Assembly: GCF_000478175.1 (NCBI RefSeq)
Contig: NZ_KI515774.1
Span: 245,594-309,593 of the forward strand
Origin: Corynebacterium sp. KPL1814
Lineage (GTDB): Bacteria; Actinomycetota; Actinomycetes; Mycobacteriales; Mycobacteriaceae
DNA length: 64,000 nt
Direction of reading: 5' to 3'
Part shown: positions 392 to 15,985 of the stretch, one piece after another
Numbering within the stretch: the stretch's first letter is position 1
Layout of the letters: every line of letters begins with the position of its first letter
Program-made: the position numbers and the translations under genes
Notes under the pieces: generated by a model
The model's input: the letters and a program-made list of their open reading frames with translations, nothing else
What the model was told of the DNA's origin: nothing
Database searches by the model: none

Positions 392-1528
392 CTAAACCTT
401 ATGACCTCCGAATATAGATTGAATCTCGTCATCGGCATGCGCGAACGGAATCCGTTCCTGTTCGATGCGTAGCTTGCCTTCGGTGAAAAGGTGGCGATAG
501 GCGCGCTGCTCTTCGGTGGTGAGGTGGCTAAGTGCTGCGGAGCCGTCGCCGGGATCGGGGACCGCGAGGTGGCGGAACGCGGTGACGGTGGCGGTATCCA
601 TGAGCAGGGACTCCGTGTGGGGAAAGTGGGCGCGCACGCCGTTGAGGATGCTGAAGCCGGCGGCGTCAAGGTCGCCCCAGTAGGTGATTTCGGCATCGTG
701 GAGCCAGGCAAGGGCGTGAAGTTGGCGGGCGGCATGGCCGGCGCCGAGGATGGCGATGGTGGGTGGGGCGGCATCGGAAAGCAGGGGCAGGGCTAGGAAG
801 GTCTGCTTGTTTTCTACGATGAGAACGCGCGGGGGAGCGGCGGGAAAGAGCTGTGCAGCCTGGGAAAGGGGAACCTCGATATCGGACAGCGCTGGGGCGT
901 GGTTGAGGTAGCGCAGGCGCAGGCGGGCATCGGTGCGGCGCAGCCCCAAATCCGTGATGCCAAAGGGCGAAAGCAGGGCGAGCAGCAGGCGGCGGTGGGT
1001 GCCTATCCATTTGCCGTCTACTCCTTCAACTGGGACGGCGCGCTCCCACTCGCCGGAGTCCGGGTGGGCGCGCAGCCAAGTCAAGCATGGTGTCAAGCAG
1101 CGCAGATCGTATGCGTTTAGCTCCTTCCACTGGGCATAGGTGCGGTACACGGCGTCGGCGAATGCAGGGGAGTCGGGGAAGATCGCGGCGATGTCGTGTG
1201 CGCGCTGTTGCGCACGGGAGTATTCGGCGCTGAGGCCCGCGGCCGCGGCGATACGGGGCGCACCGGTAAGGACCGCGCGGGTGGGAACGGAATTGGTGCC
1301 TAGGCCCGTGCGGGACCAATTGCGCGGTTCGTAGTGGATCTCTTCTTGGTGCGGCCAGCGCTGCCAGACGCGGATGAACTCCTGGGTGGCGGGGACATCG
1401 CGCGCGGCGTTGGCGGCCGTTGGCGGGTGCAGCGGCCAATCGATACTCAGCGAATCGGGAGTCGACAAAGCCTTCGCAAAGTGGTTGCGCAGGTATTTTG
1501 CCGCATGGGTGTGCAGGTCATTAGGCAT
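392..1528 (-). CDS. jetD: Wadjet protein JetD (TOPRIM nuclease subunit; MksG-like)
   Basis: About 378 residues with the DUF3322 then DUF2220 layout. It is the subunit that cuts plasmid DNA once the Wadjet SMC complex has tested its topology. The C-terminal TOPRIM fold is visible: the catalytic glutamate in PRVLIVENKQTF (about residue 239) and the GDLD acidic motif in YWGDLDAAGFSILN (about residues 285-288). The frame is open further upstream, but I chose the ATG at 1528 because it gives the usual MPNDLHTHAAKYLRN start and an 8-base ATGCCTAA-type overlap with the end of jetC, implying translational coupling. It is the last gene of the operon. Length is normal for the family and no lesion is visible. 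Confidence 0.93.
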   Translation of the reverse strand: MPNDLHTHAAKYLRNHFAKALSTPDSLSIDWPLHPPTAANAARDVPATQEFIRVWQRWPHQEEIHYEPRNWSRTGLGTNSVPTRAVLTGAPRIAAAAGLSAEYSRAQQRAHDIAAIFPDSPAFADAVYRTYAQWKELNAYDLRCLTPCLTWLRAHPDSGEWERAVPVEGVDGKWIGTHRRLLLALLSPFGITDLGLRRTDARLRLRYLNHAPALSDIEVPLSQAAQLFPAAPPRVLIVENKQTFLALPLLSDAAPPTIAILGAGHAARQLHALAWLHDAEITYWGDLDAAGFSILNGVRAHFPHTESLLMDTATVTAFRHLAVPDPGDGSAALSHLTTEEQRAYRHLFTEGKLRIEQERIPFAHADDEIQSIFGGHKV

Positions 1529-4500
1529 CCGCATCGGTGGACTCCGGGGATTCCTGGGAGTAGGAGGTGGCATCGATAAGCGAATAGCCCGTACGCGCCT
1601 GCGGGCGGCCTTGGATAATGGGCTCGTCGTAATTGACCACGATGGTGCCATCCACGTACGGCGATAGCGTCTGAATGAGTTTGAATGGCGTTGCCAAAAT
1701 CATGTGGAAGCCAAAGGACGCAAACACGGACATGGCGGTGCGCGTAAAGGCCGGGTCGGCGCGGTCGAAGGCCTCATCCAAAATGATGGAACCGTAGGTA
1801 GGAACGTCCTGATCCGGCTCCGCCAGGCGGAAGCGCAGCGCCGCAGCCAAGCAGAAGAACACCAGCTTTTGGGCCTGGCCGCCGGAAAGAGAGGCGGAAT
1901 CCTGATACGTATTGGCGGTCGTGCCATCGGGATAGCACTCGCGGCCGATGAAGCTGACATGCTTTCGAGTATCGAGAACTAAGTTGCGCCACCGAATATC
2001 CTCCGTCTCAGACGAGCCCAAGCGGCTGAGAATCTTATCCAGGGCGTGGTAGCGCGCTACCGCAGCTTCAGGCTCATCGGCACTAATTTCCGCCAGGCTA
2101 TGGGACGTCGCGGCATCGAGATCGCGCTGGAAGTCCTGCACCACCTGGCCGCGGGCATCCTTCACATCGATCCGCAGTGTGCGATCGCCATTGAAGGGCG
2201 TGCGCTCCAGAGACTTATTAATAAACTCCATGCGCTGTTCGATATCGCTACGGGCATGGCGAAGTGAGGAGGCAAGGTGCGATAGGTTTTGCACCGTCGT
2301 GCCATTGAGCAGCTCCAAGAACTTCGCGCGAAAATCCGCCAGGCGGTCCGCGCGCAGGAATTTAAGCTTTTCCATACCCTCGCCGGCGAAGCTGGCCTGC
2401 GGCTCCAAATCCGCCGCTTCCGCCGGCCACTGCGATAGGTATTTGTGGAGGACGGAGACAATCTTGGTATTCGTCTCCTCGATGCGGCGCGCGGCCGTAC
2501 GCGCGGTTTCTTGCAGGTTAGCCTGCACCTCATCGCGCCGGGCATCGATGTCATCGATGGTGAGTTTTCTTCTGCCCTTGTGCAGGGCTTCTTCGACCGC
2601 CTTGGCGATGCCCTGATCCTCCACCCTGGGCACCGTGCCGATGCTCTGTCGCCGCTGGGTGGAGCGGTTTAGCTCGCCCTCCACGTTGCCGAGGTGTTTT
2701 TGGGTTTGATTGAGCTGAGTGCGGGCAGCGGTGAGCTTTTCTTTTGCCTGCTCGTGCGCCGTGGCTAGGGCCTGCGCCTCTGGGGAGGAAGCCAAAGAAT
2801 CATACTGTTCTTGCAAATCGCGCTTTCGCGCCTCAGCAGAAGCGGTATCAATATCCTGGAACTTAGTCTCCAGTACCCGCTGCGCTTTATCGCGCTGTGT
2901 GCGCAAGATATCCATCTTCCGGTTGAGCTCATGGACCTGTTTGGCCATGGCGCGAGCAGTGGCCTTCGCTTCCTCCAATTGGGCACGCAGGAGCTCAATT
3001 TTGGCGGTATTGGTAGAACCTACTCGGTACCACCGCGTGCCATTAAAGCGCGTGCGATCATCCTTGATAAAGCGCGTCGAGCCATCCTTATCCTTGGGCC
3101 GGCTTTCCAAGCCATCGCGCGTGACGGCCGGGGTCTTGGTTACCTGTTCGAGCGCCGCCACCGAGTTGACGCATTCGTAGTTAAAGCGGCTCGAAATATG
3201 GTGGCGCACCCACTGCGCCATGGGGTGATCTTGAAACTCCAATTTGTGGATGAGCTGTTGCGGGCTGCGCGCGGGCGCAGGCGCCGGTGCAAACTCCGGG
3301 ATAGTGCGGTACTCGAGCCGGGTACCCACATTGCGAGAATTGACCCACTGGTTAATGGCTTCCCGCGCGGTTTCCGGAACGAGCAGGGTGGCGGCGAATC
3401 CGTGCAGCAATTTTTGGATCACCGGTTCCCACTCCGCCTGCTGCGGGGCAATATCCAGTAGCTCGCCAGCGAAGGGAAGCTCCGATTCGGCATAGCCAGT
3501 ATCCCGCGCGAGTTGGGTGCGTAGCTCTACGAGGGCCTTATCGATATTGGTGCGCCGCGAGCTAAATGAGTGCAGCTCACTTTCTAAGGACGCGGATGCT
3601 GTCGCTGCATCGCGGGCGGCCACGCCGGCTTCTTGCTGCTGCTCAGTAAGCTGGGCCGAGTCAGCCTCGAAGTCCGCGATGCGCAGGTGGGCATTTGCCT
3701 GCAGCTCGGCGAAGCCGTGCGGGTTGAGCTCAAAGTGGTCGGTCCACTGGTCGGCGGCAGCGGCAAGGTGGTGAAACTCCTTGGAGCGGTGCTCAATTTC
3801 CTTCTCCGCGGTTTCAATTTTGGCTTCTAGGGCGGCCAGCTCGCCGGCACTGAGTTGGGAGACGGCTACGGCGGCGCGGCGCTCGGCATCGTCAAGGTGC
3901 GTGACCTCCGCTTCGAGCGCCTCGGCCGCAGAGTGTGCCTCTGCTTGCTGGGCGGTCAGCGCGCGGATGCGATAATCCAGTTCTTCTGCCACCAAGCGGG
4001 CGCGCACCGCCGGCAGCGCCTCATTCATCGCCTCGGCCTTGTGCTTATCCGCCTCCGCGGTGGTGCGCTGGGAGTGCAATTGGGGGAGGGGAGCCAGCGT
4101 CTCAATCTGGGCCTTGACGTCCTCTACCCGCAGGTATGCCTGGCGCAGATCTTCAAATTGCTCCACCGACTCCTCCGCCCGCTCAAAAGTAGACGGCGCA
4201 TCCAGCATATAGTCCCGGAAGAGCTGGTCCAGGCTGGATAGAGATTTGGCAGACTGCGTGCGGTGCAGCAGGACCTGCCCCTGCTCGCTCTTGATGCCCA
4301 GGCGTTTGCGGAAGCGATCCGCAAACGTGGTGTACGTCGGCGTAAATGACGCACCAGGCCCCTTGTACATGGCCTTAATCTTGCGGGTATCCAGGCCTCG
4401 GGTGAGTAGGGGGCTGAGCTTATCGATGTCCTCATCTCCCTGCACCACCCCATAGAGCCTTTTAATCTGGCTCACCGAATTTTCACCGCCGTTGAGGCGG

Positions 4501-4892
4501 AAGATGGCGATGAGGGTGTGCTGCGTGCCAGCCCCATTATCGTAGGTCAACGCCACCACCGAGTTTGTTGCACCCTCACGCAAATACTCCGGGGCAATTT
4601 CGCCCGTGTGCGCATTTTCTTGCTGCCGCCACGCCCCGCGAATATAGGAAACGAGGGTGCGCCCATTATGGCGCCCGAGGTCCTGCTGCGATGCCGCGTT
4701 GAACTTGAGGTCCTTCTGCGGCACCAATACCGCCGACATCGCATCAAGCAGCGTGGACTTACCCGAACCGGATCCGCCGGTGATGAGGAAGCCCTTGCGG
4801 GCTACCGGAATGGAAAAGTAGCCGTGAAAAGTACCCCAGTTAATAAGCTGGATACGGCTAATGCGGAATTGGCCTGGATACAGGTTAGTCAT
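1521..4892 (-). CDS. jetC: Wadjet protein JetC (SMC/MukB-like ATPase)
   Basis: About 1123 residues. It is the SMC-family motor that extrudes DNA loops and senses small circular plasmids. The N-terminal Walker A is GGSGSGKSTLLD at about residues 39-50. Long heptad-rich arms (many A/E/Q/R-rich segments, residues roughly 250-480 and 640-860) flank a hinge-like centre. The C-terminal half carries the ABC signature SLSGGQAQK and Walker B IILDEAFDRAD. The upstream frame is longer, but the ATG at 4892 starts MTNLYPGQFRISRIQ, typical of the family, and overlaps jetB by 8 bases (ATGACTAA). Both nucleotide-binding halves are intact, so the ATPase should be active. In Corynebacterium glutamicum the homologue is called MksB. 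Confidence 0.95.
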   Translation of the reverse strand: MTNLYPGQFRISRIQLINWGTFHGYFSIPVARKGFLITGGSGSGKSTLLDAMSAVLVPQKDLKFNAASQQDLGRHNGRTLVSYIRGAWRQQENAHTGEIAPEYLREGATNSVVALTYDNGAGTQHTLIAIFRLNGGENSVSQIKRLYGVVQGDEDIDKLSPLLTRGLDTRKIKAMYKGPGASFTPTYTTFADRFRKRLGIKSEQGQVLLHRTQSAKSLSSLDQLFRDYMLDAPSTFERAEESVEQFEDLRQAYLRVEDVKAQIETLAPLPQLHSQRTTAEADKHKAEAMNEALPAVRARLVAEELDYRIRALTAQQAEAHSAAEALEAEVTHLDDAERRAAVAVSQLSAGELAALEAKIETAEKEIEHRSKEFHHLAAAADQWTDHFELNPHGFAELQANAHLRIADFEADSAQLTEQQQEAGVAARDAATASASLESELHSFSSRRTNIDKALVELRTQLARDTGYAESELPFAGELLDIAPQQAEWEPVIQKLLHGFAATLLVPETAREAINQWVNSRNVGTRLEYRTIPEFAPAPAPARSPQQLIHKLEFQDHPMAQWVRHHISSRFNYECVNSVAALEQVTKTPAVTRDGLESRPKDKDGSTRFIKDDRTRFNGTRWYRVGSTNTAKIELLRAQLEEAKATARAMAKQVHELNRKMDILRTQRDKAQRVLETKFQDIDTASAEARKRDLQEQYDSLASSPEAQALATAHEQAKEKLTAARTQLNQTQKHLGNVEGELNRSTQRRQSIGTVPRVEDQGIAKAVEEALHKGRRKLTIDDIDARRDEVQANLQETARTAARRIEETNTKIVSVLHKYLSQWPAEAADLEPQASFAGEGMEKLKFLRADRLADFRAKFLELLNGTTVQNLSHLASSLRHARSDIEQRMEFINKSLERTPFNGDRTLRIDVKDARGQVVQDFQRDLDAATSHSLAEISADEPEAAVARYHALDKILSRLGSSETEDIRWRNLVLDTRKHVSFIGRECYPDGTTANTYQDSASLSGGQAQKLVFFCLAAALRFRLAEPDQDVPTYGSIILDEAFDRADPAFTRTAMSVFASFGFHMILATPFKLIQTLSPYVDGTIVVNYDEPIIQGRPQARTGYSLIDATSYSQESPESTDADA

Positions 4893-5535
4893 CGGAAGCA
4901 TCCTCTTGGTCGCCCTCGGCTTCTGCGAGGCGGGCGTATTCGTCCCGGATGGCGGTGACCGTGGCGGCATCGAAAAGCTGGCGCAAGACGGGCGATACCT
5001 CGTAACGCCCTTCCGTCTCGGTGACGCTCAGCAGCGAATATTCATTGCGGATGCGTTTAATCGCCGCATTGAAGCGGTTATTAAACCCAGCCTCATCGCG
5101 GTTATCAACCGCGCGGACGTATCCAATGCCCTCCCGGAGATCTTCTACATCCACAATCACGCGTTCACCGGGCAGCGCCAAACCAAGTTCCTGGCGCAGG
5201 TTCAGCAGGATGGCGGTATCGATGTGCTTGAGCTTATCCGTGCGCAGCACCTGCGGAATGGGCAGCGTTTCCTCTTCTACCATCCGGGTAAAGGCAAACC
5301 CTTCTCCTTCATCGACCACCAGCTCGAGGAATACCTCATGCAGGCGGGCGCGCAGGTTGTCTTCGTCCGAGATGATGGCGGACCATAAGACAGGTTCCTT
5401 GTGCGCACGCACCAGCGGGCCTTTCAAAAGCTGCACCAAGGCGCGGCGCGAATTATAGGTTAGCGATCCTTTATCGTTTTCCCACAGCGGGGGCTCATGC
5501 GCGGAATCGACGCGGTGGTTATCAGTAGCGGTCAC
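4885..5535 (-). CDS. jetB: Wadjet protein JetB (DUF4194; MksE-like KITE subunit)
   Basis: 216 residues of the DUF4194 family, the small winged-helix KITE subunit that sits on the kleisin JetA and bridges it to the JetC heads. The sequence shows the typical short helical and winged-helix pattern (RRALVQLLKGPLVRAHKEP near residues 30-48) and an acidic tail. The start is GTG, overlapping by one base the TAG stop of jetA (TAGTG), and the end overlaps jetC by 8 bases, so the three are translated as a coupled unit. No catalytic residues are expected. Assignment rests mainly on the family pattern and on the fixed gene order. Confidence 0.9.
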   Translation of the reverse strand: MTATDNHRVDSAHEPPLWENDKGSLTYNSRRALVQLLKGPLVRAHKEPVLWSAIISDEDNLRARLHEVFLELVVDEGEGFAFTRMVEEETLPIPQVLRTDKLKHIDTAILLNLRQELGLALPGERVIVDVEDLREGIGYVRAVDNRDEAGFNNRFNAAIKRIRNEYSLLSVTETEGRYEVSPVLRQLFDAATVTAIRDEYARLAEAEGDQEDASDD

Positions 5536-7004
5536 TACAACTCCTCAACGGTGGTGCTATCGAAATACATAGTAGGGATATACGCCGCGCGAATGGTCCC
5601 ATCTTCTTCGGTCCAAGTGACCTTTTCATGGGCGTCATGCAAAGCCGGTAGCGGGTGCTGGTCCGCAATGTGTACCAAACCCACGACGCTGGCCAGGCCC
5701 TGTGTGGGCGGGTACGCCTGTAATACCTGGCCAATCGTGCATGGACCCGCCTTGCCGACGGCCCCGCGAATCGCCGCATGCAGTTCCTCAAAGTCAATCT
5801 CTGACTCGCGCACTAACTCATACAACGCCTTCGCATTCTCTTGGCCTGGCTGGAAGGCCTCCGGTGCTTCCTCCACGACCTCGCGTCCCGGGTTGGCTAG
5901 TTGGATGCGCGAGACTGAATGAATGGACATGCCGATGCGCTGCAGGGGCGTTTCCATGCGGTGAAAGGCTTTCAGCTCCGATCCTTGCGCTGCATCAATG
6001 GCCATGCCCCGTGCCTCGCGCAGTAGCTCAATCATGCGGCGGTCTTCGGCAAATTGTTCTGAAGAGACATAGTTGCGCAAGCTGCGCGCCAGGCCAGTCA
6101 TCGTTTGATTGACTTCGAAGCTCGTTTCTTCCATATCGCGGAAGAGGTTCCGCAGCTGCCGCCGGTTTTCTGGCGCTAGCTCTTGGCCAACGTCGCTTTC
6201 TAGAACCTGCTTAATCCACTGGTCCAGCCACGCGCTGCGTTCTCTATCCATGAGGTAGGAATAGAATCCGCGAAAGCTACGCCCCGCGTCCGATTCTGCG
6301 ATGTGGTCTACACCGCTGAAGATTTCCTCGAGCACCTCGCCGCGGTAGCCTTCTGGATCCAACAGCTGCCGACGTAGCCTGTGATTGAGGGCTTCGAGTT
6401 CATGGCGCACCCTGGCGAAATCACTTGGTACCGCCATGGCCATGTTCAGCACGTCTTGGACGCGCTCCTGCGTCTCTGCCGCAGTCAGCCTTTCAAACTG
6501 CCCCAAATGAGCTTTTTCAATTTCGCGGTCAATGCGGTCTCGCTCCGCCTCTAAGCTGGCGACGCGGCTCGAAATATCCTCATTCGTATCCCGAGCCAAG
6601 CGCTGCAGAGCCGAGCCGATAGATTCCACACGCGATGCCGTGACCGTAGTAACCGGAGTTTCCCAACGCTCAACGGCCTCGAGCGCGGACAGCGCTTCCT
6701 CGCTTGGCTCCAAGGTTTCCCCGCGCGAGCTCCTGCCAGATTTGCGGACTAGCCAACCAGCTTTTACCCAATCATTGCAATAGCTTTGCGGTGTGCGCGG
6801 CATCGGGAACTCACTGGCAAGCACCTCGAAGTCGGTGACCATGAGCTCATATATCTCCGCCGCCGGCCGCGCTCGAGTACCGCGGGGGAAATACTCAGAA
6901 ATCAGCGCCAAAATCACCGGAGCGTTTTCGGCTGCCAGTAACCGCACGGCAGCGGAATCCTTTAATAACCGCCGCAGTGAAAGGGCGCGAGCTTCAACAG
7001 ACAT
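5535..7004 (-). CDS. jetA: Wadjet protein JetA (DUF3375; MksF-like kleisin)
   Basis: 489 residues of DUF3375. It is the kleisin of the complex and first gene of the operon. The start MSVEARALSLRRLLKDSAAV and the following winged-helix region match the family. The middle is helical (EAERDRIDREIEKAHLGQFE), and the C-terminal third (about 380-480) is the second winged helix. The ATG at 7004 follows a putative promoter at 7040-7070. With jetB, jetC and jetD it makes a complete type I Wadjet set, which protects cells from plasmids by recognising their small circular shape. No frameshift is seen. Confidence 0.93.
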   Translation of the reverse strand: MSVEARALSLRRLLKDSAAVRLLAAENAPVILALISEYFPRGTRARPAAEIYELMVTDFEVLASEFPMPRTPQSYCNDWVKAGWLVRKSGRSSRGETLEPSEEALSALEAVERWETPVTTVTASRVESIGSALQRLARDTNEDISSRVASLEAERDRIDREIEKAHLGQFERLTAAETQERVQDVLNMAMAVPSDFARVRHELEALNHRLRRQLLDPEGYRGEVLEEIFSGVDHIAESDAGRSFRGFYSYLMDRERSAWLDQWIKQVLESDVGQELAPENRRQLRNLFRDMEETSFEVNQTMTGLARSLRNYVSSEQFAEDRRMIELLREARGMAIDAAQGSELKAFHRMETPLQRIGMSIHSVSRIQLANPGREVVEEAPEAFQPGQENAKALYELVRESEIDFEELHAAIRGAVGKAGPCTIGQVLQAYPPTQGLASVVGLVHIADQHPLPALHDAHEKVTWTEEDGTIRAAYIPTMYFDSTTVEEL

Positions 7005-7130: not shown

Positions 7131-7550
7131 TTAGTCCTGTGCGACGGTGACGTTGACGTCGATATTGCCGCGGGTGGCGTTGGAGTAGGGGCAGACCTGG
7201 TGGGCGGCATCGGCAAGCTCTTGTGCCTTGTCGTGGTCCTGTGCGGGGATGATGACCTCGAGCTCAACGGCGAGCTTGAAGCCTTCGCCTTCCTTGCCAA
7301 TGGACACGCGGGCGCCCACGGAGGAATCGCCCAACTCAGCCTTCTCGCTGCGGGCTACTGCCTGCAGGGCGGAGTGGAAGCAAGCGGCATAACCAGCAGC
7401 GAAGAGCTGCTCCGGGTTGGCTCCATTGCCATCGCCACCCATTTCCTTCGGGGTGGCCATATTGAAATCAAGGTCAGAATTTTGCACTACGGCGCGGCCA
7501 TCGCGGCCTGCTCCAGTAGCGAGTGCTTCAGTGGTGTAAAGGGCGTCCAT
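7131..7550 (-). CDS. ohr: Organic hydroperoxide resistance protein (Ohr, OsmC family)
   Basis: 139 residues, the usual Ohr length. It is a cytoplasmic thiol peroxidase that reduces organic and fatty-acid hydroperoxides, taking electrons from lipoylated proteins. Both redox cysteines are present: AGYAACFHSAL (about residue 57) and HQVCPYSNATRGN (about residue 122). The N-terminus MDALYTTEALATGAGRDG is typical. A good ribosome binding site (AAAAGGAG) precedes the ATG. It stands alone between the Wadjet operon and the CRISPR locus. No OhrR regulator gene is adjacent, although an inverted repeat overlaps its promoter. Confidence 0.95.
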   Translation of the reverse strand: MDALYTTEALATGAGRDGRAVVQNSDLDFNMATPKEMGGDGNGANPEQLFAAGYAACFHSALQAVARSEKAELGDSSVGARVSIGKEGEGFKLAVELEVIIPAQDHDKAQELADAAHQVCPYSNATRGNIDVNVTVAQD

Positions 7551-7588
7551 GATTACTCCTTTTCTAAAGTCATTTTCGTACTAGTAGT

Positions 7589-7611
7589 GAGTACAGACGC
7601 CGATTGTACTC
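7589..7611 (-). promoter_or_regulatory. ohr promoter with perfect inverted repeat
   Basis: GAGTACA (7589-7595) and TGTACTC (7605-7611) form a perfect 7-base inverted repeat with 9 bases between. On the minus strand the left arm contains TACAAT (7603-7608 region), a strong -10 hexamer about 55 bases before the ohr start. A repressor bound here would block transcription of ohr, as expected for a peroxide-sensing regulator, but the regulator is not in the window. Confidence 0.5.
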
Positions 7612-7679
7612 AGAATTTTTATCCGTGTTTTTCGAGGTCAGCGAAGGAAGCGGCTTTGGGAAGGGTGAGAAAAGGCAAT

Positions 7680-7760
7680 ATGCCTAAGCATGCGCCGAAG
7701 ACCTACTCAACCCGCGCCGGGGGAGTGGGCGCCCCTTCCGGTGGAAGGACCTTGGGGTAG
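7680..7760 (+). CDS. Possible 26-residue peptide or gene fragment
   Basis: ATG at 7680 with GAGAAAAGG shortly upstream encodes MPKHAPKTYSTRAGGVGAP and ends SGGRTLG before TAG at 7758. It is basic and glycine-rich. I do not recognise it. The same bases also form the hairpin CCTTCC-GGT-GGAAGG (7735-7749), so this may be a structured RNA or a remnant of a longer gene rather than a peptide. Confidence 0.2.
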   Translation: MPKHAPKTYSTRAGGVGAPSGGRTLG

Positions 7761-7836
7761 TGCTTTGATTGGCTTGCAAACTTAACCCACCGAAAAGACG
7801 GTGAAGACAAAGGGAGCCTTAAATTATGGAGATAGA

Positions 7837-7864
7837 AAATAATCCCCGCTGACGCGGGGAACTA
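7837..7864 (-). terminator. Repeat-like element 2 (psi-R2), hairpin plus T-tract
   Basis: The stem CCCCGC-GTCA-GCGGGG is identical to the array repeat except for one loop base, but the handle is replaced by ATTATTTT. It would end the crRNA-like transcript as an intrinsic terminator while still offering a Cas6e hairpin. The terminal repeat of the main array (18830) shows the same change. Confidence 0.65.
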
Positions 7865-7896
7865 GTCAATTGACTATTCAAGTGAGCACTGACATG

Positions 7897-7924
7897 GGCT
7901 CATCCCAGCGTTAGCTGGGAGTTT
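7897..7924 (-). repeat. Repeat-like element 1 of the mini array (psi-R1)
   Basis: Aligned to the array repeat it matches 19 of 28 positions. The last 13 positions differ only at one stem base and the 3' end GGGATGAGCC is identical, so the crRNA 5' handle is kept. In the stem, CCCCGC/GCGGGG of the array is CCCAGC/GCTGGG here: C-G at positions 9 and 18 became A-T, a compensated pair. The loop GTGA became TAAC. This pattern is expected if the element is still cut by Cas6e. Confidence 0.8.
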
Positions 7925-7942
7925 GGCATTGGGCCTTCTGCT

Positions 7943-7972
7943 ATCTTACCGCACAAATTAATGCAGATTTTA
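7943..7972 (-). promoter_or_regulatory. Putative promoter of the crRNA-like RNA
   Basis: Two minus-strand -10 candidates point at the mini array: TAAGAT (7948 to 7943), giving a start about 12 bases before psi-R1, and TAAAAT (7972 to 7967), with TTGCAT (7993 to 7988) as a -35 at short 15-base spacing. The second would overlap the cas3 promoter region head to head, so one Cascade complex could affect both. Which one is used cannot be told from sequence. Confidence 0.4.
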
Positions 7973-7990
7973 CACCCATCCTTAAAAATG

Positions 7991-8019
7991 CAACATGTCA
8001 GTGCTAAGCAGGGTATAGT
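7991..8019 (+). promoter_or_regulatory. Putative cas3 promoter containing the seed match
   Basis: TATAGT at 8014-8019 is the best -10 hexamer upstream of cas3; the -35 region (about 7990-7996) is weak, as usual in actinobacteria. The 12-base identity with the mini-array guide covers 7994-8005, between -35 and -10, and a 32-nt R-loop would extend to 8025, over the -10 and start site. The expected 5' leader is about 65 nt and contains a hairpin around 8044-8064. Confidence 0.55.
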
Positions 8020-8092
8020 CTTAAATCATTAGTTGATAACTCCAGTTCACCATAAAAAGTGGACTTGGTGAGCCTGTAGCGGAGATAGAACC

Positions 8093-10873
8093 ATGAAATT
8101 GCCAGCGAAGACAGTGGATTTTTGTACTCGTGCAGATGGTTGGGCTGGTCAACGCAGCCAGCAGGCGCGGAGCTTGTGGGCGAAATCGGGCGACGGTGTA
8201 GACCATCTCAACCTGCCGCAACATATGGTTGATTCCGCATGTGCTGCATCCTTGGTGTACAACTCTTGGCTTTCTCGTTCAGTAAAGGAGTTCCTGAAAG
8301 CCGAGTTACGTGTCTCAGAGACGGATATAGAAGTTCTCTACGTCTTTCTTGCTGGGTCCCATGATGTTGGAAAAGGTGTTAAGACTTTCCAGCGGCTTCT
8401 TCTTGACCGCAGTGACGTTGCGCATTTGGTCCACGCCGTTAGCGACGCGGGATTGGATATCGAATTGAGCGCCTCAGAGGCGAATATGTCCAAGCTTCCG
8501 CATGGTATTGCCTCTGGTGAAATTTTAGCAATCTGGCTTGTAGAACAGGGACTTACTCTGCCAAAAGCTAACTCATTGGCTGCGGTTGTCAATGCACATC
8601 ATGGTGCCGCAAGCGGGCCGAATAAAGCGGTCCGAGAATTGATTCAAGATTACCCTTCGGCGTGGCGAATTGTTCATGGTGAACTTCTTGATGCCATGGC
8701 GCAACTCTGCGGGGGAAATGAGCTTGCGCAGGTGCTTGCCAAGCTGCCGAAAGTCTCACCCGCCGCTGCGCAACTGCTTACCGGTTTAGTGGTTATGGCG
8801 GACTGGATTGCTTCCAATGAAAAGGCATTCAGTTTACGCGTGGAGGGAACTCAACTAGACAGAGTGGCACGGGCTGCAGAACTTATTGACCTGACCTCAC
8901 CCTGGGAACCGGAAACTCGATTGCATCAAGACATCGACGAGCAATTCCGGCAATCGTTTGGGTGGCCGGCCGAGTTTAAGGCGCGACAAGTACAGCAGGA
9001 AATGGTGAAGGCTGCCAAAGAGACCGATGAGCCAGTGCTCATAGTCCTAGAGGCTGAAACAGGCGTAGGAAAAACCGAAGCCGCCTTAGCAGCAGCGGAA
9101 GTGCTCGCGGCGCGGAGTGGAGCACAAGGAATCTACTTTGCCGCTCCGACCATGGCTACGGCGAATGGCCTACTGCAAAGGACCATCGAATGGAGCCGAA
9201 ACGTAACGACGGGTTCGGTTCGATCGATGTACCTTGCACATTCCAAAAATGCATTGGCTAAGCCTTATACGGATTTAAAATTTACGGGAATCAACCGTTA
9301 CGAAGAAGAAGGCGGCAACGTTGTTGCATCGCAGTGGATGTCGGGACGGCGGCTCGGCATTCTTTCCAATTTCGTGGTGGGTACCGTTGACCAAGTGCTC
9401 ATGATGGCGCTACAGCAGCGGTTTTCCATGCTGAGGCACGTCGGCCTGGCAGGCAAAGTAGTAATTTTTGATGAGGTTCATTCCTTTGATGTGTATTCCT
9501 CCGATTACCTCCGCAGTGCCATCGAATGGTTGGGATTTTATGGTGCCAGCATCATCGTCATGTCCGCCACGTTGCCGGCGGACAAGCGACGCGCATTGGT
9601 CAGCGCGTACTCCGACGGTCAATGGCCAGAGGAAGAGCCGACTGGCTACCCACTGATCACAGTGGCGACAGAAGACGAAATTCGTTCTCTAGAGGTTCCA
9701 GCGTCTCCAACAGATCTTGAAGCCACAATTAGTTTCCTTGCGGAAGGCGAAGATTCACTGCACGAACTTCTCGGGGAATGGCTCGTGGATGGCGGGTGTG
9801 TTCTTATTATCTGCAATACTATCGCACGAGCTCAGGCGGCGTATTCGGAACTCGCCGAAAGCTATGGTGATTGCGTGGAGCTTCATCATGCGGGTTTTGT
9901 GGCTTGGGAACGCGTAGAAAAAGAAGATTCATTACGGCGACAACTTGGCCCGGATGCCCACAGGGGAGCAGGTCGGCCGAAGCAAAAAATTGTGGTGGCT
10001 ACTCAGGTGGCGGAACAGAGCTTGGATATTGATGCCGATGCCCTGATTACTGATATCGCACCTATGGATCTGCTCATTCAGCGCATCGGGAGGCTGCACC
10101 GCCACGCGCGTCCTTTCAGCGATCGACCCGAAAACCTGCGCGAACCACAGGTTGTTATTCGCGGGCTAGAAACTTCCTCACCAGTCCCGGAATTTGAATC
10201 AGGTGCCGAGGCTATTTACGGCCGTGCGATATTGCTATCAACCTATGCAGTCTTGCCAAATAAGATTCGCCGTCCAGATGACATCGCTCCGCTTGTAGCA
10301 GCTGCATATGATCGCAACTTTAAGCCGCCAGAGGCGTGGAACGAATCGTGGGAAGAGGCCATTGCGACGCGTGATTTTGAGGAATCGACAGCGCATTCAG
10401 CGTCCTCAACGTTCCGATTGCCAGATCCATGGAGTACCAACGGCCTGGACGCTCTATTTGCACGGCTGCAGGATGATTCCGCAGACGATGCCGAGATCAA
10501 AGGCGCGGCCCAAGTTCGTGACGCAGAGCCCAGCGTTGAGGTGATCCCCATCATCGAGACTGATTATGGCTATCGCCCGTGGGGCTGGGATGAAGAAGTC
10601 ATCGAGGCTGCCGATATTCCGTATAAGCTGGCCTTTCATCTTGCGTCTAGTACAGTACGACTGCCTGTGCGAATGACCCGTTATGACTCGGACTTTGATG
10701 CAGTGGTCAATGACCTCGAAGGGGCAACCCCGGCCGAGTGGGGTTCACATTATTTACTGCGGGGACAACTGGCTCTGCCGTTAGATGAAGGGGAAGAGAC
10801 GCAGGTAGGACGCTTTGTTCTGCGGTATACGAGCCAGCTGGGAATCGAAATTATGAGTGATGGGCGTGAGTGA
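8093..10873 (+). CDS. cas3: CRISPR-associated helicase-nuclease Cas3 (type I-E)
   Basis: 926 residues. Cas3 is recruited by Cascade bound to target DNA, then nicks, unwinds and degrades it. The N-terminal HD nuclease shows H44 in LPQHMVDSA, H90-D91 in GSHDVGKG, and MADWIAS near residue 236. The superfamily 2 helicase follows: Walker A ETGVGKTEAA at about 322-331, DEVH at 460-463, SATLP at 491, and motif VI QRIGRLHRH near 663-671. All catalytic motifs are intact. The ATG at 8093 follows GGAGATAGAACC. The gene is separated from cas8e by 99 bases, so Cascade may have its own promoter. Confidence 0.97.
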   Translation: MKLPAKTVDFCTRADGWAGQRSQQARSLWAKSGDGVDHLNLPQHMVDSACAASLVYNSWLSRSVKEFLKAELRVSETDIEVLYVFLAGSHDVGKGVKTFQRLLLDRSDVAHLVHAVSDAGLDIELSASEANMSKLPHGIASGEILAIWLVEQGLTLPKANSLAAVVNAHHGAASGPNKAVRELIQDYPSAWRIVHGELLDAMAQLCGGNELAQVLAKLPKVSPAAAQLLTGLVVMADWIASNEKAFSLRVEGTQLDRVARAAELIDLTSPWEPETRLHQDIDEQFRQSFGWPAEFKARQVQQEMVKAAKETDEPVLIVLEAETGVGKTEAALAAAEVLAARSGAQGIYFAAPTMATANGLLQRTIEWSRNVTTGSVRSMYLAHSKNALAKPYTDLKFTGINRYEEEGGNVVASQWMSGRRLGILSNFVVGTVDQVLMMALQQRFSMLRHVGLAGKVVIFDEVHSFDVYSSDYLRSAIEWLGFYGASIIVMSATLPADKRRALVSAYSDGQWPEEEPTGYPLITVATEDEIRSLEVPASPTDLEATISFLAEGEDSLHELLGEWLVDGGCVLIICNTIARAQAAYSELAESYGDCVELHHAGFVAWERVEKEDSLRRQLGPDAHRGAGRPKQKIVVATQVAEQSLDIDADALITDIAPMDLLIQRIGRLHRHARPFSDRPENLREPQVVIRGLETSSPVPEFESGAEAIYGRAILLSTYAVLPNKIRRPDDIAPLVAAAYDRNFKPPEAWNESWEEAIATRDFEESTAHSASSTFRLPDPWSTNGLDALFARLQDDSADDAEIKGAAQVRDAEPSVEVIPIIETDYGYRPWGWDEEVIEAADIPYKLAFHLASSTVRLPVRMTRYDSDFDAVVNDLEGATPAEWGSHYLLRGQLALPLDEGEETQVGRFVLRYTSQLGIEIMSDGRE

Positions 10874-10972: not shown

Positions 10973-12718
10973 ATGACTGATACAGAAACCTTTAACCTGC
11001 TCGATGAGCCATGGATTTTGTGCATGGACAGTGCGGATAATCGCAAGGCGTTGAGCATCCGGGACATATTTTCTGGACAGGGCGATGCCCATAAGATTGT
11101 GGGCGATTCACCGACCCAGGATTATGTGGTCATAAGGCTGTTATTGGCTATATTTTGGCGTGCTCATGCGCAAGAATTAGCGGAAGCAGCAGGCGGAAGG
11201 CGGAAACGCGCCAGCTTTGATTGGGGCGAATGGTTCGCGGAAATGCGTGAAGAATTATGCGAGACGAAGCGGGACCAAGTTGTTTTAGATTATCTTGATG
11301 CCTTTAGAGACCGATTCGACTTACTCTCTGACACTGTTCCCTTCATGCAGGTGGCGGATCTTCACTCGCAGAAAAATGAGACTCGACCGATTTCCTATAT
11401 AGTTCCAGAAGCCGCTGATGATCATTTCACGATGCGTACGGCTGAGGGGCGGCGGGCAATTCCTCTAGATGAGGCCGCCCGTTGGTTGCTTCACCTGCAA
11501 GCTTATGATTATTCCGGTATTAAAACCGGCGCAGTAGGAGACCCTCGCGTAAAGGGTGGTAGAGGTTACCCCATCGGCACAGGTTGGACTGGTCGAACGG
11601 GCGGAACTTTGGTGCTTGGAACTGAAGGTCTCCTAGAAACACTTTTGCTGAATACTCCTATGGCAGCTGTTATGACGGAGCAGGGAACTAACCCAATTGA
11701 GCTGGATGAACCGGTATGGGAAAGAGAACCTGATACCGCTGCGCAGCGCCGTGGATCGGATGACAAGCTTGGTGCTGTGCCCCAAGGAGCGGCTGATTTG
11801 GCAACTTGGCAGGCACGACGAGTGCGCCTAGTAGCTGAAGAAGGCCAGATTACTCGCGTCCTCGTATCGAATGGTGATCGCATTCCGGATGCGGGAAAGA
11901 ATGTCATGGGTGATCCCATGACGCCGTATCGGTATAGCCCTAACCAGTCGAAGGCCGGCCAAGATGCTTACTACGCGCGTCCCTACAATTCCACCCAGAC
12001 CATGTGGCGCGCACTTGATGCTTTGGTTGCCGTCGAAGACGACCCAGGTTTCGACCAGAAAAAGGCAAAAGCTCACAAGCGACCAGCCAATCTCAGCAAT
12101 CTCGCTGCGCTTGACGTTGATGGATATCTAAACCAAGGCGCCTTTGATATTGCCTTGGTTTCGATGGAATACGGACCGCAGGAATCTTCAGTAGCCACCA
12201 CTTTCAGCACCACGATCGGGCTTCCCCTAGTGGTATTGCGCGAAGATGATCTTGGCAGGCAAGCGCGTAACGCTGTCCGCACTGCCGCACAAAAGACCTA
12301 TGAAACAGCTGTGAGCTTGGGCTGGTTTGAAGGTCAACTGCGGGTAGCCGCGGGCGATGATTATGAATTCGGCGTTAAGTCTAAGGACAGGTTTTACGCC
12401 CAGTTAGAGCCGGAGTTTATTGCGTGGATGCAGACCATTTCTGCTGAAAATGCAGACAGCGCTCAAATCAACTGGCAGGAACGAGTTCGAACAGTAGCCG
12501 TCTCCCACGCATTGGAACTGCTGCGCGGCGCCGGGATGAAGGCAATTATCGGCAGGGAAGTAGACGCAGGAGAAGACGGAAGGGGCCGAATCGTCTCAGC
12601 TGGATCCCTTTTTCAGCAGCTACAGCGGCGTTTTGATAAGAACCTGCCGTTAACAGGCAAGTCCACACGAAATCAGAATCCTAGCTCACCTATGAAGGAA
12701 GGTGTTGCTCATGCATGA
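10973..12718 (+). CDS. cas8e: Cascade large subunit Cas8e (CasA/Cse1)
   Basis: 581 residues. It is the large Cascade subunit that reads the PAM and helps load Cas3. The N-terminus FNLLDEPWILCMD is the typical Cse1 opening, and GVGDPRVKGGRG-like and YPIGTGWTGRTGG segments (about 187-207) match the conserved glycine-rich region near the L1 loop. A very strong ribosome binding site AAAGGAGG lies 9 bases before the ATG. It starts the Cascade gene block and overlaps cse2 at its end. Confidence 0.95.
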   Translation: MTDTETFNLLDEPWILCMDSADNRKALSIRDIFSGQGDAHKIVGDSPTQDYVVIRLLLAIFWRAHAQELAEAAGGRRKRASFDWGEWFAEMREELCETKRDQVVLDYLDAFRDRFDLLSDTVPFMQVADLHSQKNETRPISYIVPEAADDHFTMRTAEGRRAIPLDEAARWLLHLQAYDYSGIKTGAVGDPRVKGGRGYPIGTGWTGRTGGTLVLGTEGLLETLLLNTPMAAVMTEQGTNPIELDEPVWEREPDTAAQRRGSDDKLGAVPQGAADLATWQARRVRLVAEEGQITRVLVSNGDRIPDAGKNVMGDPMTPYRYSPNQSKAGQDAYYARPYNSTQTMWRALDALVAVEDDPGFDQKKAKAHKRPANLSNLAALDVDGYLNQGAFDIALVSMEYGPQESSVATTFSTTIGLPLVVLREDDLGRQARNAVRTAAQKTYETAVSLGWFEGQLRVAAGDDYEFGVKSKDRFYAQLEPEFIAWMQTISAENADSAQINWQERVRTVAVSHALELLRGAGMKAIIGREVDAGEDGRGRIVSAGSLFQQLQRRFDKNLPLTGKSTRNQNPSSPMKEGVAHA

Positions 12719-13382
12719 CACCAGTCATCCGCAGGCAGAAACTGCTGCGGAGTACACAGGCCCGCGTTTGCGAACCTCCGTGGCGCGTACCGCAGAGGCG
12801 CTGCAGAATGATTATTTGCATTCGCCACAACACAATAAACAAGCGCGAGCACGTGCAGTCCTAGCCCAATTGCGCAAGTATTCTGCGGTACGTCTTGAAC
12901 AACATCCCGTGGCACTTGAAGAGGTCCTCCTTTTATTGGAGCCCGCATTGAGTGAACAAGAGATGGGAAAGGGCGCCGCACCATCCGCATCAGAGCTCGC
13001 GGCCTTTCAAGCCATGACGATGCTAGGTATCCATCTACAAAGCGCTAGCACTGAAGCACATATTAAAGGCCAAAGCTTCGCACGGGCCTGCGGTCGTTTC
13101 TATGCGCACAGTCAGTCACAATCCACGAAACCGCGGTTTGATGCGATGCTCGTATCTCCCGATGAGGCTTCCCGCCTCATACATATTCGTTCCTTGGTAA
13201 CGCTATTGCGCGGGGAAAATTTGGGGTTTGACTACGGTGCATTTGCACAGGACCTGCGGGTTCTAGGCAGCAAAAACGCTACTCAAAAAGCTCATACACA
13301 GCGACAAGGCGTGCTATTGAAATGGGCACGTGACTTCGCACTCGGTTCTTATGCGTCTTCCCAGACCGAACCGACTTCTTAA
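12711..13382 (+). CDS. cse2: Cascade small subunit Cse2 (CasB)
   Basis: About 223 residues. Cse2 is a helical protein present as a dimer in the belly of Cascade, where it stabilises the R-loop. The sequence is helical throughout and contains the family-typical basic patches (HSPQHNKQARARAVLAQLRK near 40-60, SFARACGRFYAHSQ near 125). The frame opens at a GTG at 12702, but I prefer the ATG at 12711, which has AAGGAAGG 9 bases upstream and overlaps the cas8e stop codon. Identification rests on family pattern plus its position between cas8e and cas7e. Confidence 0.93.
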   Translation: MHDTSHPQAETAAEYTGPRLRTSVARTAEALQNDYLHSPQHNKQARARAVLAQLRKYSAVRLEQHPVALEEVLLLLEPALSEQEMGKGAAPSASELAAFQAMTMLGIHLQSASTEAHIKGQSFARACGRFYAHSQSQSTKPRFDAMLVSPDEASRLIHIRSLVTLLRGENLGFDYGAFAQDLRVLGSKNATQKAHTQRQGVLLKWARDFALGSYASSQTEPTS

Positions 13383-13417: not shown

Positions 13418-14560
13418 ATGACTTTGACCATCGATATCCACGCTCTGCAGACTCTTCCGCCTTCTCTGATCAATCGTGACGACACCGGGGCGCCCAAGTC
13501 TGCCGTTTACGGCGGCGTGCCACGTCAGCGAGTCTCTTCGCAGGCATGGAAGCGTGCAATCCGCAAGTACTTTGAATCTGAAATCGATGCTGAATCTGTG
13601 GGGGATCGCTCGAAGCGGCTTCCAGAGAAGATCGCACGAAAGGTTCAAGAACACGAAGGCTGGGATGCGGAGCGAGCTCAAAAGGAAGTTGCTGAGCTTT
13701 TCAAAGCTGCTGGAATTAAGACGGAAGTGGACGCGAAGCGTATCAAGGCGCTGAAAGATTCCGAGGAAACCACCGAAGAAGAACTAGTAGCAGCGCAGTA
13801 TCCGCAGACCAAATACTTGTTGTTCTTGAGCCCACACCAGATTGAACGTGCCGCGGAGGCGATTATTGCGGCCGACGGTGAAAAGATTAAGAAGAAGGAT
13901 GCGCTGGAGATCCTTGATACCCAGCACTCGGTAGATATGGCGTTGTTTGGGCGCATGGTTGCCGATGATGCTGCGTATAACGTCGATGCCGCCGTACAGG
14001 TTGCGCATGCACTGGGAATCCATGCCAGCGCTCCTGAATTCGACTATTTCACCGCGGTCGATGACTTGGCCGAGGAAGGCGAAGAAACTGGTGCAGGCAT
14101 GATTGGCACCGTACAAATGATGTCTTCTACCTTGTACCGCTATGCCACGGTGAATCTAGATGGACTGACGCGAAATCTCGACTCGGCAGAAAACGCAAAG
14201 CAAGCCGCAGTGAACTTCGTTGATGCATTCATCAAGTCCATGCCCACGGGCAAAATCAATACCTTTGCCAATCAAACAATGCCTGAGCTCATCTATATTG
14301 CGGTTCGCGATACCCGCCCGGTTAGCCTGGTTACTGCCTTCGAAGAACCAGTAGAGCCAACCACCGGGCAGAGCTTGCGCGTCGCCGGTGCCGAAGCATT
14401 GGCGAAAGAAGAAGCAGAGTTTGAAGAAAACTATGGGCTGCAGCCTAAGGCAGCCTTTGTGGTTGGGTTGAGCGAGGCCCGTCAGGCTTTCGCACACATC
14501 GCTGACGAAGTGACGCTGCCAGAGCTTTCGCAGCGTTTGTCTTCCGCGCTTTCGGAGTAG
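13418..14560 (+). CDS. cas7: Cascade backbone subunit Cas7e (CasC/Cse4)
   Basis: 380 residues. Six copies of Cas7e form the crRNA-covering backbone of Cascade. The N-terminus DIHALQTLPPSLINRDD and the segment VPRQRVSSQAWKRAIRKYF (about 40-58) are diagnostic. SVDMALFGRMVADD (about 168-181) and the GKINTFANQTMPE region (about 277-289) are also conserved. The ribosome binding site AAAGGAA precedes the ATG. It sits 35 bases after cse2 and 13 bases before cas5e, consistent with one transcript. Confidence 0.97.
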   Translation: MTLTIDIHALQTLPPSLINRDDTGAPKSAVYGGVPRQRVSSQAWKRAIRKYFESEIDAESVGDRSKRLPEKIARKVQEHEGWDAERAQKEVAELFKAAGIKTEVDAKRIKALKDSEETTEEELVAAQYPQTKYLLFLSPHQIERAAEAIIAADGEKIKKKDALEILDTQHSVDMALFGRMVADDAAYNVDAAVQVAHALGIHASAPEFDYFTAVDDLAEEGEETGAGMIGTVQMMSSTLYRYATVNLDGLTRNLDSAENAKQAAVNFVDAFIKSMPTGKINTFANQTMPELIYIAVRDTRPVSLVTAFEEPVEPTTGQSLRVAGAEALAKEEAEFEENYGLQPKAAFVVGLSEARQAFAHIADEVTLPELSQRLSSALSE

Positions 14561-14573
14561 GAGGCTTAAAACG

Positions 14574-15290
14574 ATGACAGCATCATTGTTGTTGCTGCTT
14601 AAAGGGCCGATGCAGTCTTGGGGAACGGAATCTCGCTACGCTACCCGTGCAACTTCGTCCTTGCCCTCAAAGTCAGGAGTTCTTGGCATGCTAGCTGCAG
14701 CTGAAGGACGCAGGCGTGATGAAGATATGGCCGATTTGGCGGGCCTCAAGTTCGCGGTGCGTGTTGACCAATCCGGTAGCCTTTTGCGCGATTATCAGAC
14801 CGCGCAAAACTGGCAAAAGGATCCACAGGCATCCGCAAAGCTCATCACTCGCTATTTCCTATCAGATGCCGCATTCGTTGCGGCAATTGAAAGTGAGGAT
14901 CGCGAGCAACTCGAGAATTTTGCGGAGAACCTAAACCGACCAGTATTTCCGCTCTATTTGGGCCGACGTTCGTGCCCGGCTCCGCCCAATGTGGTGCTTG
15001 GTGTGGTTGAAAAGCCTGCGGTTACGGCATTACAAGAGCACGGCACGTGGCACGCCACCAAGGAGTATATGAAATCAAGTGGTGGGGAAGTATCGCTGCC
15101 GATTTACCGGGACTCCCTCCCAGGAGAATCCGGCGTGGCTTGCCAGGATGTACCGAACTCTTTTGATCCGCAGCACCGCAAGTATTCATGGCGCACCGTG
15201 GTGCAAAAGGAGTTTGCGAATGTGGACAACCCCTTAGATAGCGCCGAGCGGCGCCCGGATCCCTTTTTGGAGGCGGTGATGAATGTATGA
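14574..15290 (+). CDS. cas5: Cascade subunit Cas5e (CasD)
   Basis: 238 residues. Cas5e caps the 5' handle of the crRNA in Cascade. The start LLLLLKGPMQSWGTESRYATR is the diagnostic Cas5e opening, followed by PSKSGVLGMLAAAEGRRR (about 31-48). FPLYLGRRSCPAPPNV (about 128-143) is the conserved glycine-rich segment. GGAGG lies 11 bases before the ATG. Its stop overlaps the cas6e start in ATGA. In the crRNA-like model it would hold the GATGAGCC handle conserved in psi-R1. Confidence 0.96.
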   Translation: MTASLLLLLKGPMQSWGTESRYATRATSSLPSKSGVLGMLAAAEGRRRDEDMADLAGLKFAVRVDQSGSLLRDYQTAQNWQKDPQASAKLITRYFLSDAAFVAAIESEDREQLENFAENLNRPVFPLYLGRRSCPAPPNVVLGVVEKPAVTALQEHGTWHATKEYMKSSGGEVSLPIYRDSLPGESGVACQDVPNSFDPQHRKYSWRTVVQKEFANVDNPLDSAERRPDPFLEAVMNV

Positions 15291-15985
15291 GTACGTTAAC
15301 CAAAATTCTTATCAATCCTCAGCGGCGTCAAGGGCGAAAGTTGCTTGCTAATCCACAAGCAATGCACGCTGCAGTTGCCGCGTCATTTCCACCAGACATG
15401 GATCAAGAATCCGGGCGTATTTTATGGCGCCTTGATGAAGGTGCGCATCACCATTCCCTCTACGTGGTGGGGCCAGAAAAACCGACTGACCATGTGATTG
15501 TGGAACAAGCAGGGTGGGATACAAGGCCGGGACAATCGGTTGAGTATGACCGGCTGCTTAATTCACTGACTAAGGGGCAAAGATGGATCTTTGAGCTAGT
15601 AGCCAACCCAACGTATTCGCAGGCTAATGAAGGCAAGCGAGGCAAAGTGAAGGCCCATGTGTCCGTGGAACACCAGTTGGAGTGGCTATATCGGCGAGCA
15701 GAAAATGCCGGATTCGAACTAGCCCCCCGGGAAAGTGATGACGTCAGCGATGATGAGCGTCCTCGGTGGTCCGCGGAAGAAGAAACCGCGATTATTGAGC
15801 GAAAAACGTTGGATTTCCGGAAAGGAAATGGCAACAGGCGTGTGCGTATCGCCACAGCCCGATACCGCGGAACCTTAGAAGTCAAAGACCCTGAGGCTTT
15901 TCGGCACACCCTTACTCATGGGATAGGAAGAGCTCGTGGTTATGGTTGCGGCCTGATGACCCTAGCCCGACCGATGGGGTCTTGA
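15287..15985 (+). CDS. cas6e: crRNA-processing endoribonuclease Cas6e (CasE/Cse3)
   Basis: 232 residues. Cas6e cuts the repeat hairpin of the precursor RNA at the 3' base of the stem and stays bound. The likely catalytic histidine is H27 in NPQAMHAAVAASFP, equivalent to His20 of the E. coli enzyme. The C-terminal glycine-rich loop GIGRARGYGCGLMTL is present. It overlaps cas5e by ATGA and cas1 by one base (TGATG). Its substrate should include the array repeats and, if transcribed, psi-R1 and psi-R2, whose stems are preserved. Confidence 0.95.
   Translation: MSTLTKILINPQRRQGRKLLANPQAMHAAVAASFPPDMDQESGRILWRLDEGAHHHSLYVVGPEKPTDHVIVEQAGWDTRPGQSVEYDRLLNSLTKGQRWIFELVANPTYSQANEGKRGKVKAHVSVEHQLEWLYRRAENAGFELAPRESDDVSDDERPRWSAEEETAIIERKTLDFRKGNGNRRVRIATARYRGTLEVKDPEAFRHTLTHGIGRARGYGCGLMTLARPMGS

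Follow-up and report, generated by a model that had tools for sequence, protein, structure and literature searches.

Between ohr and cas3 in Corynebacterium sp. KPL1814 lies a short element that resembles a single spacer with its two repeats, and the beginning of that spacer recurs just ahead of cas3. This raises the question of whether a type I-E CRISPR system carries, outside its array, a guide that would hold down its own cas genes, and whether the same arrangement is found elsewhere in the genus. An earlier note on this DNA had proposed such a guide. Here, the element was examined in the window (the whole stretch of 64,000 nucleotides that was analysed), in four close relatives and across Corynebacterium.

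A mini-CRISPR unit between ohr and cas3

The cas genes of the window, all on the plus strand, form a complete type I-E set in which each gene lies over the curated cut-off of its Cas family: cas3 (8093 to 10873; cas3_core and cas3_HD of NCBIfam, above cut-off), cse1/casA (10973 to 12718; TIGR02547), cse2/casB (12702 to 13382; TIGR02548), cas7e (13418 to 14560; TIGR01869), cas5e (14574 to 15290; TIGR01868), cas6e (15287 to 15985; TIGR01907), cas1e (15985 to 16923; TIGR03638) and cas2e (16920 to 17276; TIGR01873). The CRISPR array (17366 to about 18857, plus strand) has a 61-nt period and the repeat GTGCTCCCCGCGTGAGCGGGGATGAGCC. The gap between cas3 and cse1 is 99 bases long and the scan found no terminator-like site in it, so the whole operon is probably under the promoter of cas3; a promoter scan of the same gap is uninformative, since none was found at cas3 either. 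On the divergent side lies ohr (7131 to 7550, minus strand; Ohr family of NCBIfam). The type I Wadjet genes JetA, JetB and JetC (PADLOC; 1521 to 7004 of the window, minus strand) directly adjoin ohr and the CRISPR locus, and the two defence loci together are a defence island.

The mini array described in the earlier note, two degenerate repeats around a 32-nt spacer, was confirmed on the minus strand at 7924 to 7837, about 9.4 kb from the array. The first repeat, psiR1 (7897 to 7924, minus strand; AAACTCCCAGCTAACGCTGGGATGAGCC), still has the handle ATGAGCC as well as a 6-bp hairpin, in which one stem pair is swapped on both sides (CCCAGC/GCTGGG vs. CCCCGC/GCGGGG in the array repeat). It is followed by the guide (7865 to 7896, minus strand) and by psiR2 (7837 to 7864, minus strand; TAGTTCCCCGCGTCAGCGGGGATTATTT), in which the hairpin is retained, the handle is gone and a T-rich tail scored as terminator-like. 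Agreement with the array repeat extends to 19 of the 28 positions in psiR1 and 20 of the 28 in psiR2, and the spacer is 1 nt shorter than those of the array (33 nt when the repeat is counted as 28 nt). With its single spacer, its 8 and 9 repeat differences out of 28 and its 60-nt period, the unit is not an ordinary type I-E array. Folding of 7935 to 7825 formed both hairpins (z = -4.87). A likely -10 element for the unit, TAAGAT (7943 to 7948, minus strand), lies in a GTAAGAT block identical in the window and the four relatives; a scan for the sigma-70 consensus found no full promoter for the mini-CRISPR or for cas3. An Rfam search of 7551 to 8120 returned only mir-3660 and U12, both far under their gathering scores.

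In E. coli, the first spacer base is at once the eighth base of the handle and the counterpart of the third PAM base. By this analogy, position 7896 is handle base 8 (PAM3) and the matching seed comprises the 11 bases from 7895 to 7885. The processed RNA predicted from the repeat geometry and from E. coli Cas6e spans 60 nt (7844 to 7903, minus strand), which agrees with the length of roughly 60 nt given in the earlier note; its 5' end, by the same analogy, should be AUGAGCCC and not GATGAGCC as stated there. A perfect 14-bp palindrome, TAGTCAATTGACTA, spans the border between guide and psiR2 at 7863 to 7876. It is the sole exact copy in the genome and is identical in three of the four relatives and one base off in the fourth.

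Target of the guide in the cas3 promoter

The 12 bases at the start of the guide, CATGTCAGTGCT, were said to recur in the cas3 promoter behind AA, and in the 2,499,604 bases (2.50 Mb) of the genome they are indeed found exactly twice, in the guide and at 7994 to 8005 (expectation in the window from shuffles, 0.01). The AA stands, but the first of the 12 bases is PAM3 by the E. coli analogy, and the target core is better described as the PAM AAC (7992 to 7994, plus strand) followed by 11 matching bases (7995 to 8005). A search for AAN and the seed, any base being allowed at position 7, gave one genomic occurrence. Beyond 8005 there is a mismatch at an unpaired position and then one further match, so pairing is continuous to about position 13, with 19 matches out of 32 overall. 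The full protospacer footprint (7995 to 8025, plus strand) would lie over the likely cas3 -10 element, TATAGT (8014 to 8019, plus strand), which is kept in the window and three of the four relatives and altered in the other (G102). In the arrays of the 96 loci compared below, the first base of 4,131 spacers is C in 57%, G in 32%, T in 10% and A in 1%, and in this it resembles the third PAM base, which suggests, as far as spacer first bases can tell, an AAC/AAG-leaning PAM in Corynebacterium.

The features described so far are those of CreR, crRNA-like guides that repress cas promoters: a single spacer between CRISPR-like repeats, beside the cas genes and outside the array; a seed match of limited length, next to a PAM, in a cas promoter (AAC plus 11 bases); and complementarity too short for interference by the figure for E. 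coli, where interference or priming takes more than 18 bp according to excerpts of PMC5904413. Excerpts on CreR describe it for type I and type V-A systems (PMC12737573) and name types I-B, I-E and V-A (PMC13131331); the statement in the earlier note that such guides are known in a few CRISPR types is thus borne out in print, type I-E among them (PMC13131331).

A similar anatomy is known from CreTA addiction modules, in which the targeted promoter would drive a hidden toxin that the guide represses, and loss of Cascade is thereby punished. Their creA likewise consists of two degenerate repeats and a seed match to a promoter (PMC8501985, in part), and excerpts on six haloarchaeal systems describe a psiR1 that keeps the Cas5-binding handle and a psiR2 that largely loses it (PMC9458426). 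A type I-E case has been described from Citrobacter rodentium, where the crRNA-like unit lies opposite the strand of the repressed gene and the target is PAM-adjacent; there, in the text available to us, the module is located between cas3 and casA, represses a toxic frame of 96 bp and has a PAM given as ATG (PMC12055562). In the window, by contrast, the targeted promoter leads to a cas gene and apparently to no toxin, with cas3 following directly, about 70 nt further on. No conserved frame and no candidate toxin were seen by eye between target and cas3, and a short frame noticed there begins with a TTG that is missing from the four relatives. Furthermore, in eight other loci of the genus the target is in or near the gap between cas3 and cse1, again ahead of a cas gene. 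We therefore consider a CreTA-type module highly improbable at this locus, and return to the reading of the unit as a guide against its own cas promoter.

The four close relatives (Cas3 93 to 97% identical to that of the window) allow guide and target to be followed over a short evolutionary distance. Loss of the match in relatives that keep the repeats had been set beforehand as a refutation; it did not occur, and all four agree at 10 of the 10 core positions (positions 2 to 6 and 8 to 12 of the guide). The full 12 bases match in three of them, and L036 differs only at the unpaired position 7. The sequence CATGTC has become CACGTC in both guide and target of two relatives and CATGTT in both guide and target of the two others, one of which has the mismatch at position 7. 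Among 127 pairs of loci with similar seeds, the core shows 404 two-sided changes with the match kept, 11 changes in the guide only and 36 in the target only, while position 7 shows 4 two-sided, 52 guide-only and 12 target-only changes; these counts are descriptive, because the pairs depend on one another and matching was a criterion in choosing the core. On this sequence evidence, guide and target change together across the genus.

Conservation was also compared by counting invariant columns among the window and its four relatives, which amount to 27 of 28 in psiR2, 28 of 32 in the guide, 25 of 28 in psiR1 and 11 of 14 in the target. Elsewhere, the counts are 159 of 286 on the ohr side, 18 of 42 from the mini-CRISPR promoter to the target and 57 of 73 in the cas3 leader. 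At the cas3 -10 element, four of the eight columns from 8012 to 8019 are invariant.

Recurrence and pairing pattern across the genus

When 242 genomes of the genus were searched with Cas3, 97 matches were obtained, including that of the genome itself. The surroundings of cas3 were fetched for 95 of the 96 other genomes (in the one left out, G211, the Cas3 match lacks the N-terminal part), which together with the window gave 96 loci. Units were sought from -900 to +60 of the cas3 start as a handle and hairpin with another repeat-like hairpin after them, and targets from -500 to +60 as at least 9 of the 10 core positions behind AA, with arrays masked. A mini-CRISPR unit was found upstream of cas3 in 69 of the 96 loci, and its guide matches at least 9 core positions in 58 loci and all 10 in 42. 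The remaining 38 loci fail this strict test: in 27 the scan gave no upstream unit, and in 11 the match is weaker; wider searches credit 10 of them, which leaves 68 of the 96 loci credited and 28 not, four of these 28 reaching 8 out of 10. In the 58 matching loci, the psiR1 handle is ATGAGCC in 47, a loosely defined T-rich stretch follows psiR2 in 37, and the base at PAM3 is C in the target of 48 and in the guide of 23. The psiR1 hairpin is not rigidly kept: scored with a fixed 4-nt loop, although loop size varies, 82 of 348 stem pairs are broken, 26 have changed on both sides and still pair, and 39 have changed on one side and still pair. The exact position of the target within the promoter also varies, as TANNNT shows no more than a weak preference for one distance from it (9 of the 53 plus-strand targets at offset 20, with equally many at -3).

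The matches are far more frequent than expected by chance. Shuffled guides reach at least 9 core positions in 0.16% of cases and never reach 10 (about 6,900 shuffles), and guides placed on the promoters of other loci reach at least 9 in about 1.2%, part of which may be due to relatives with common seeds. Both nulls were computed for an earlier tally (57 of 69 at 9 or more, with targets from -400) that included array-derived candidates in L051 and L087; the final counts use masked arrays. In 635 control windows 3.3 to 10 kb past the cas3 start, mostly within cas genes, 15 candidate units were found, none with a match of 9 or more. Since the rules of the scan had been adjusted to these same loci, the less biased checks weigh most. 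When the PAM requirement was dropped, the best sites still lay behind AA in 58 of the 58 loci, and reversed or complemented guides gave at least 9 in 0 of 69. No second 10/10 target behind AA was found anywhere in the fetched stretches of the 58 loci.

The third of the less biased checks concerns the phase of the mismatches. The 58 matching loci represent 47 distinct seeds, among which guide and target agree in 45 to 47 at positions 2 to 6 and in 42 to 47 at positions 8 to 12, and at chance level at positions 1 (15 of 47), 7 (16) and 13 (10). Agreement returns at position 14 (42 of 47) and then declines through positions 15 (34), 16 (26), 17 (22), 18 (14) and 19 (8). The jump from position 13 to position 14 (P = 1.7e-11, Fisher's exact test) is nearly clean, because position 13 was unused in site selection and positions from 14 onward served for tie-breaking only. 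When positions 7 and 13 were skipped, 42 perfect cores were obtained, each the single one in its locus, whereas the other five phases gave 3 to 4 (at least 9 in 21 to 25 loci, as one mismatch allows). Cascade leaves every sixth base of its guide unpaired, and judged by their positions in these alignments the mismatches are that pattern. The core at positions 2 to 6 and 8 to 12 corresponds to the 1-to-5 and 7-to-11 core of haloarchaeal CreA, in which, according to an excerpt, mutation found these positions to be needed and positions 6 and 12 to be free (PMC8501985).

These patterns also bear on two other explanations. The unit could be a functionless remnant of a CRISPR array in decay, whose agreement with the cas3 promoter arose by chance or was inherited from an ancestor; the degeneracy of both repeats and the full second arrays that some loci carry on the divergent side of cas3 are in keeping with this. 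For the genus, however, it is contradicted by the shuffles, the control windows, and the PAM-free and phase checks. The 47 distinct seeds, the AA in all 58 loci, the joint changes and the six-base periodicity likewise argue against a relic, as does the conservation of the unit above most of its surroundings, and such an origin is extremely improbable. Alternatively, the paired sites could be operators of a protein regulator, of which the palindrome at 7863 to 7876, perfect and unique in the genome, would form a part. A protein would not be predicted to keep differing words identical at two places, nor does it account for AA always standing 5' of one copy and the repeat handle 5' of the other, or for free positions every six bases; this explanation is scarcely credible. 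Thus, the element is best read as CreR, because the unit and its seed match extend over the genus, the target lies behind AA, mismatches fall on every sixth base, and guide and target change jointly.

Several loci showed further arrangements. Full second CRISPR arrays, farther out than the mini-CRISPR on the divergent side of cas3, are present in 14 of the 96 loci (L047 to L051, L053, L054, L056, L057, L060, L062 to L064 and L069), and in L054 two neighbouring array spacers, at about -287 and -348, have the same sequence, which points to array duplication. L126 and L127, whose Cas3 is distant and whose repeat begins CTCTTCTCCGC, carry a 21-nt mini-CRISPR about 650 bases upstream of cas3, for which the search gave no target at 9 or above. 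Matches of 9/10 from the relaxed search in L114, L122, L124 and L126, located within arrays or having no convincing unit, and a 9/10 match of an array-like unit in L104 from the whole-locus search, were treated as chance. A scan of named genomes yielded five loci, four of them from Corynebacterium (including C. macginleyi and C. aurimucosum); the fifth, weak and partial, was left unused. Outside the genus, 298 genomes of the order gave 42 Cas3 matches and 29 loci, in which units with 10/10 (L141, L151 and L155) and 9/10 (L133) matches were found under looser rules and with no null, so that they serve as a lead only. L135 and L159 (10/10, no second hairpin), L137 (9/10, 25-nt spacer) and several loci at 8 were not credited.

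Guide lengths, proposed regulation and significance

The guides fall into two lengths. Among the 58 loci, the spacer is 20 to 21 nt in 36 and 32 to 33 nt in 22 (with repeats counted as 28 nt), and the guide of the window belongs to the long class; of the 4,381 array spacers, 4,155 have 33 nt and 173 have 34 nt. A wider search that admitted spacers of 2 to 81 nt gave 20 to 22 nt in 40 loci, 32 to 33 nt in 25 and seven single outliers. On a FastTree phylogeny of Cas3 (92 of the 96 rows, 66 of them labelled with a length; L095 and L106 carry no label owing to an atypical second repeat), the length class changes at least eight times, a figure that is approximate because support is poor at some forks and long branches were flagged. 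Matching at positions 14 to 17 is more frequent in short guides (89 of 124) than in long ones (35 of 64; P = 0.02). The targets differ in place as well. A relaxed search recovered 10/10 targets in L095 and L106, close to where cas3 starts, and a whole-locus search, which had no shuffle null of its own, placed the targets of L083, L104, L109, L111, L113 and L114 (10/10) and of L097 and L110 (9/10) about 2.9 to 3.1 kb after the cas3 start, which are the eight targets in or near the cas3-cse1 gap.

Published work indicates what shortened guides may do. Excerpts report that truncating type I-E Cascade by 6 or 12 slows target degradation but does not abolish it (PMC7296934), and that in a type I-B host lengths of 30 or below no longer allowed interference and those of 24 or below no longer allowed priming, repression persisting to a varying extent (PMC10989794). 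We lean, by a modest margin over even chances, toward the view that Corynebacterium keeps a fast-changing pair of guide and promoter as a usual part of type I-E systems, in two interchangeable formats, one full-length and matching chiefly through its seed, the other 12 nt (two Cas7 footprints) shorter and giving a smaller regulatory Cascade; this may perhaps extend to other families of the order.

With high confidence, judged from the sequence comparisons, the element would be a CreR-type mini-CRISPR that guides Cascade to the cas3 promoter and represses its own operon. The mini-CRISPR would be transcribed leftward from the promoter near 7943 to 7948, and Cas6e would cut the short transcript in both degenerate repeat hairpins. 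The resulting 60-nt RNA would be loaded into type I-E Cascade and bring it to the PAM AAC and the 11 bases at 7995 to 8005, where the complex would cover the cas3 -10 element. Cas3 is not expected to cut, because continuous pairing ends after about 13 positions. With Cascade over the -10 element, cas3 and probably the genes behind it would be held down for as long as Cascade has spare capacity; competition by ordinary crRNAs for Cascade, or a phage inhibitor that disables it, would lift repression and lead to more Cas protein. The self-repressing guide proposed in the earlier note thus gains support from the genus-wide statistics, the PAM and the six-base periodicity, and repression would follow from them by inference.

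Work on E. coli supports binding through a short match, as pairing of only 5 bp is enough for Cascade to bind there (PMC5904413, in excerpt). Other observations weigh against the reading. In the same study, genes lying within 1 kb of off-target Cascade sites did not change in expression, which by analogy may argue against ready repression. In addition, 28 of the 96 loci have no credited match, the psiR1 hairpin is not rigidly kept, the consensus scan gave no sigma-70 promoter for either gene, and the cas3 -10 element is altered in one close relative.

The element of the window belongs to the already known CreR kind: excerpted accounts of CreR likewise describe a guide that resembles a crRNA, pairs in part with a cas promoter and generally has no toxin (PMC12737573, PMC13131331, PMC12948488). 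They differ in that the genus-wide spread, the guides shorter by 12 nt and the choice between cas3 and cse1 as target, known here from sequence, are absent from those excerpts. No report of CreR in Corynebacterium was recognised among the literature matches listed, a scope outside which the primary CreR paper falls; the words CreR, crRNA-like and mini-CRISPR are absent from the accessible part of a review of actinomycete CRISPR systems (PMC12231136), as are "intergenic", "degenerate" and "upstream" from that of a paper on type I-E in C. striatum (PMC9944170). The short-guide class and the genus-wide turnover may be new. A more distant parallel is autorepression by SpyCas9 of type II, in which, as excerpted, the effector also limits its own expression and phage inhibitors relieve it, although RNA and effector are unrelated (PMC13131331).

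The mini-CRISPR would thus act as a feedback brake built into the immune system, and brakes of this kind have been described in other microbes. Its distribution suggests that self-control of type I-E systems is common across the whole genus and not a curiosity of a few model strains. The 47 seeds provide an evolutionary read-out of the rules of Cascade, namely an AAN PAM, every sixth base unpaired, and about 12 to 16 paired positions for repression, and from the coupling one would expect Cas production in these species to rise under anti-CRISPR attack. The natural short guides make it testable whether cells build a smaller regulatory Cascade; if they do, such a complex would be the natural counterpart of the laboratory Cascades with truncated spacers.
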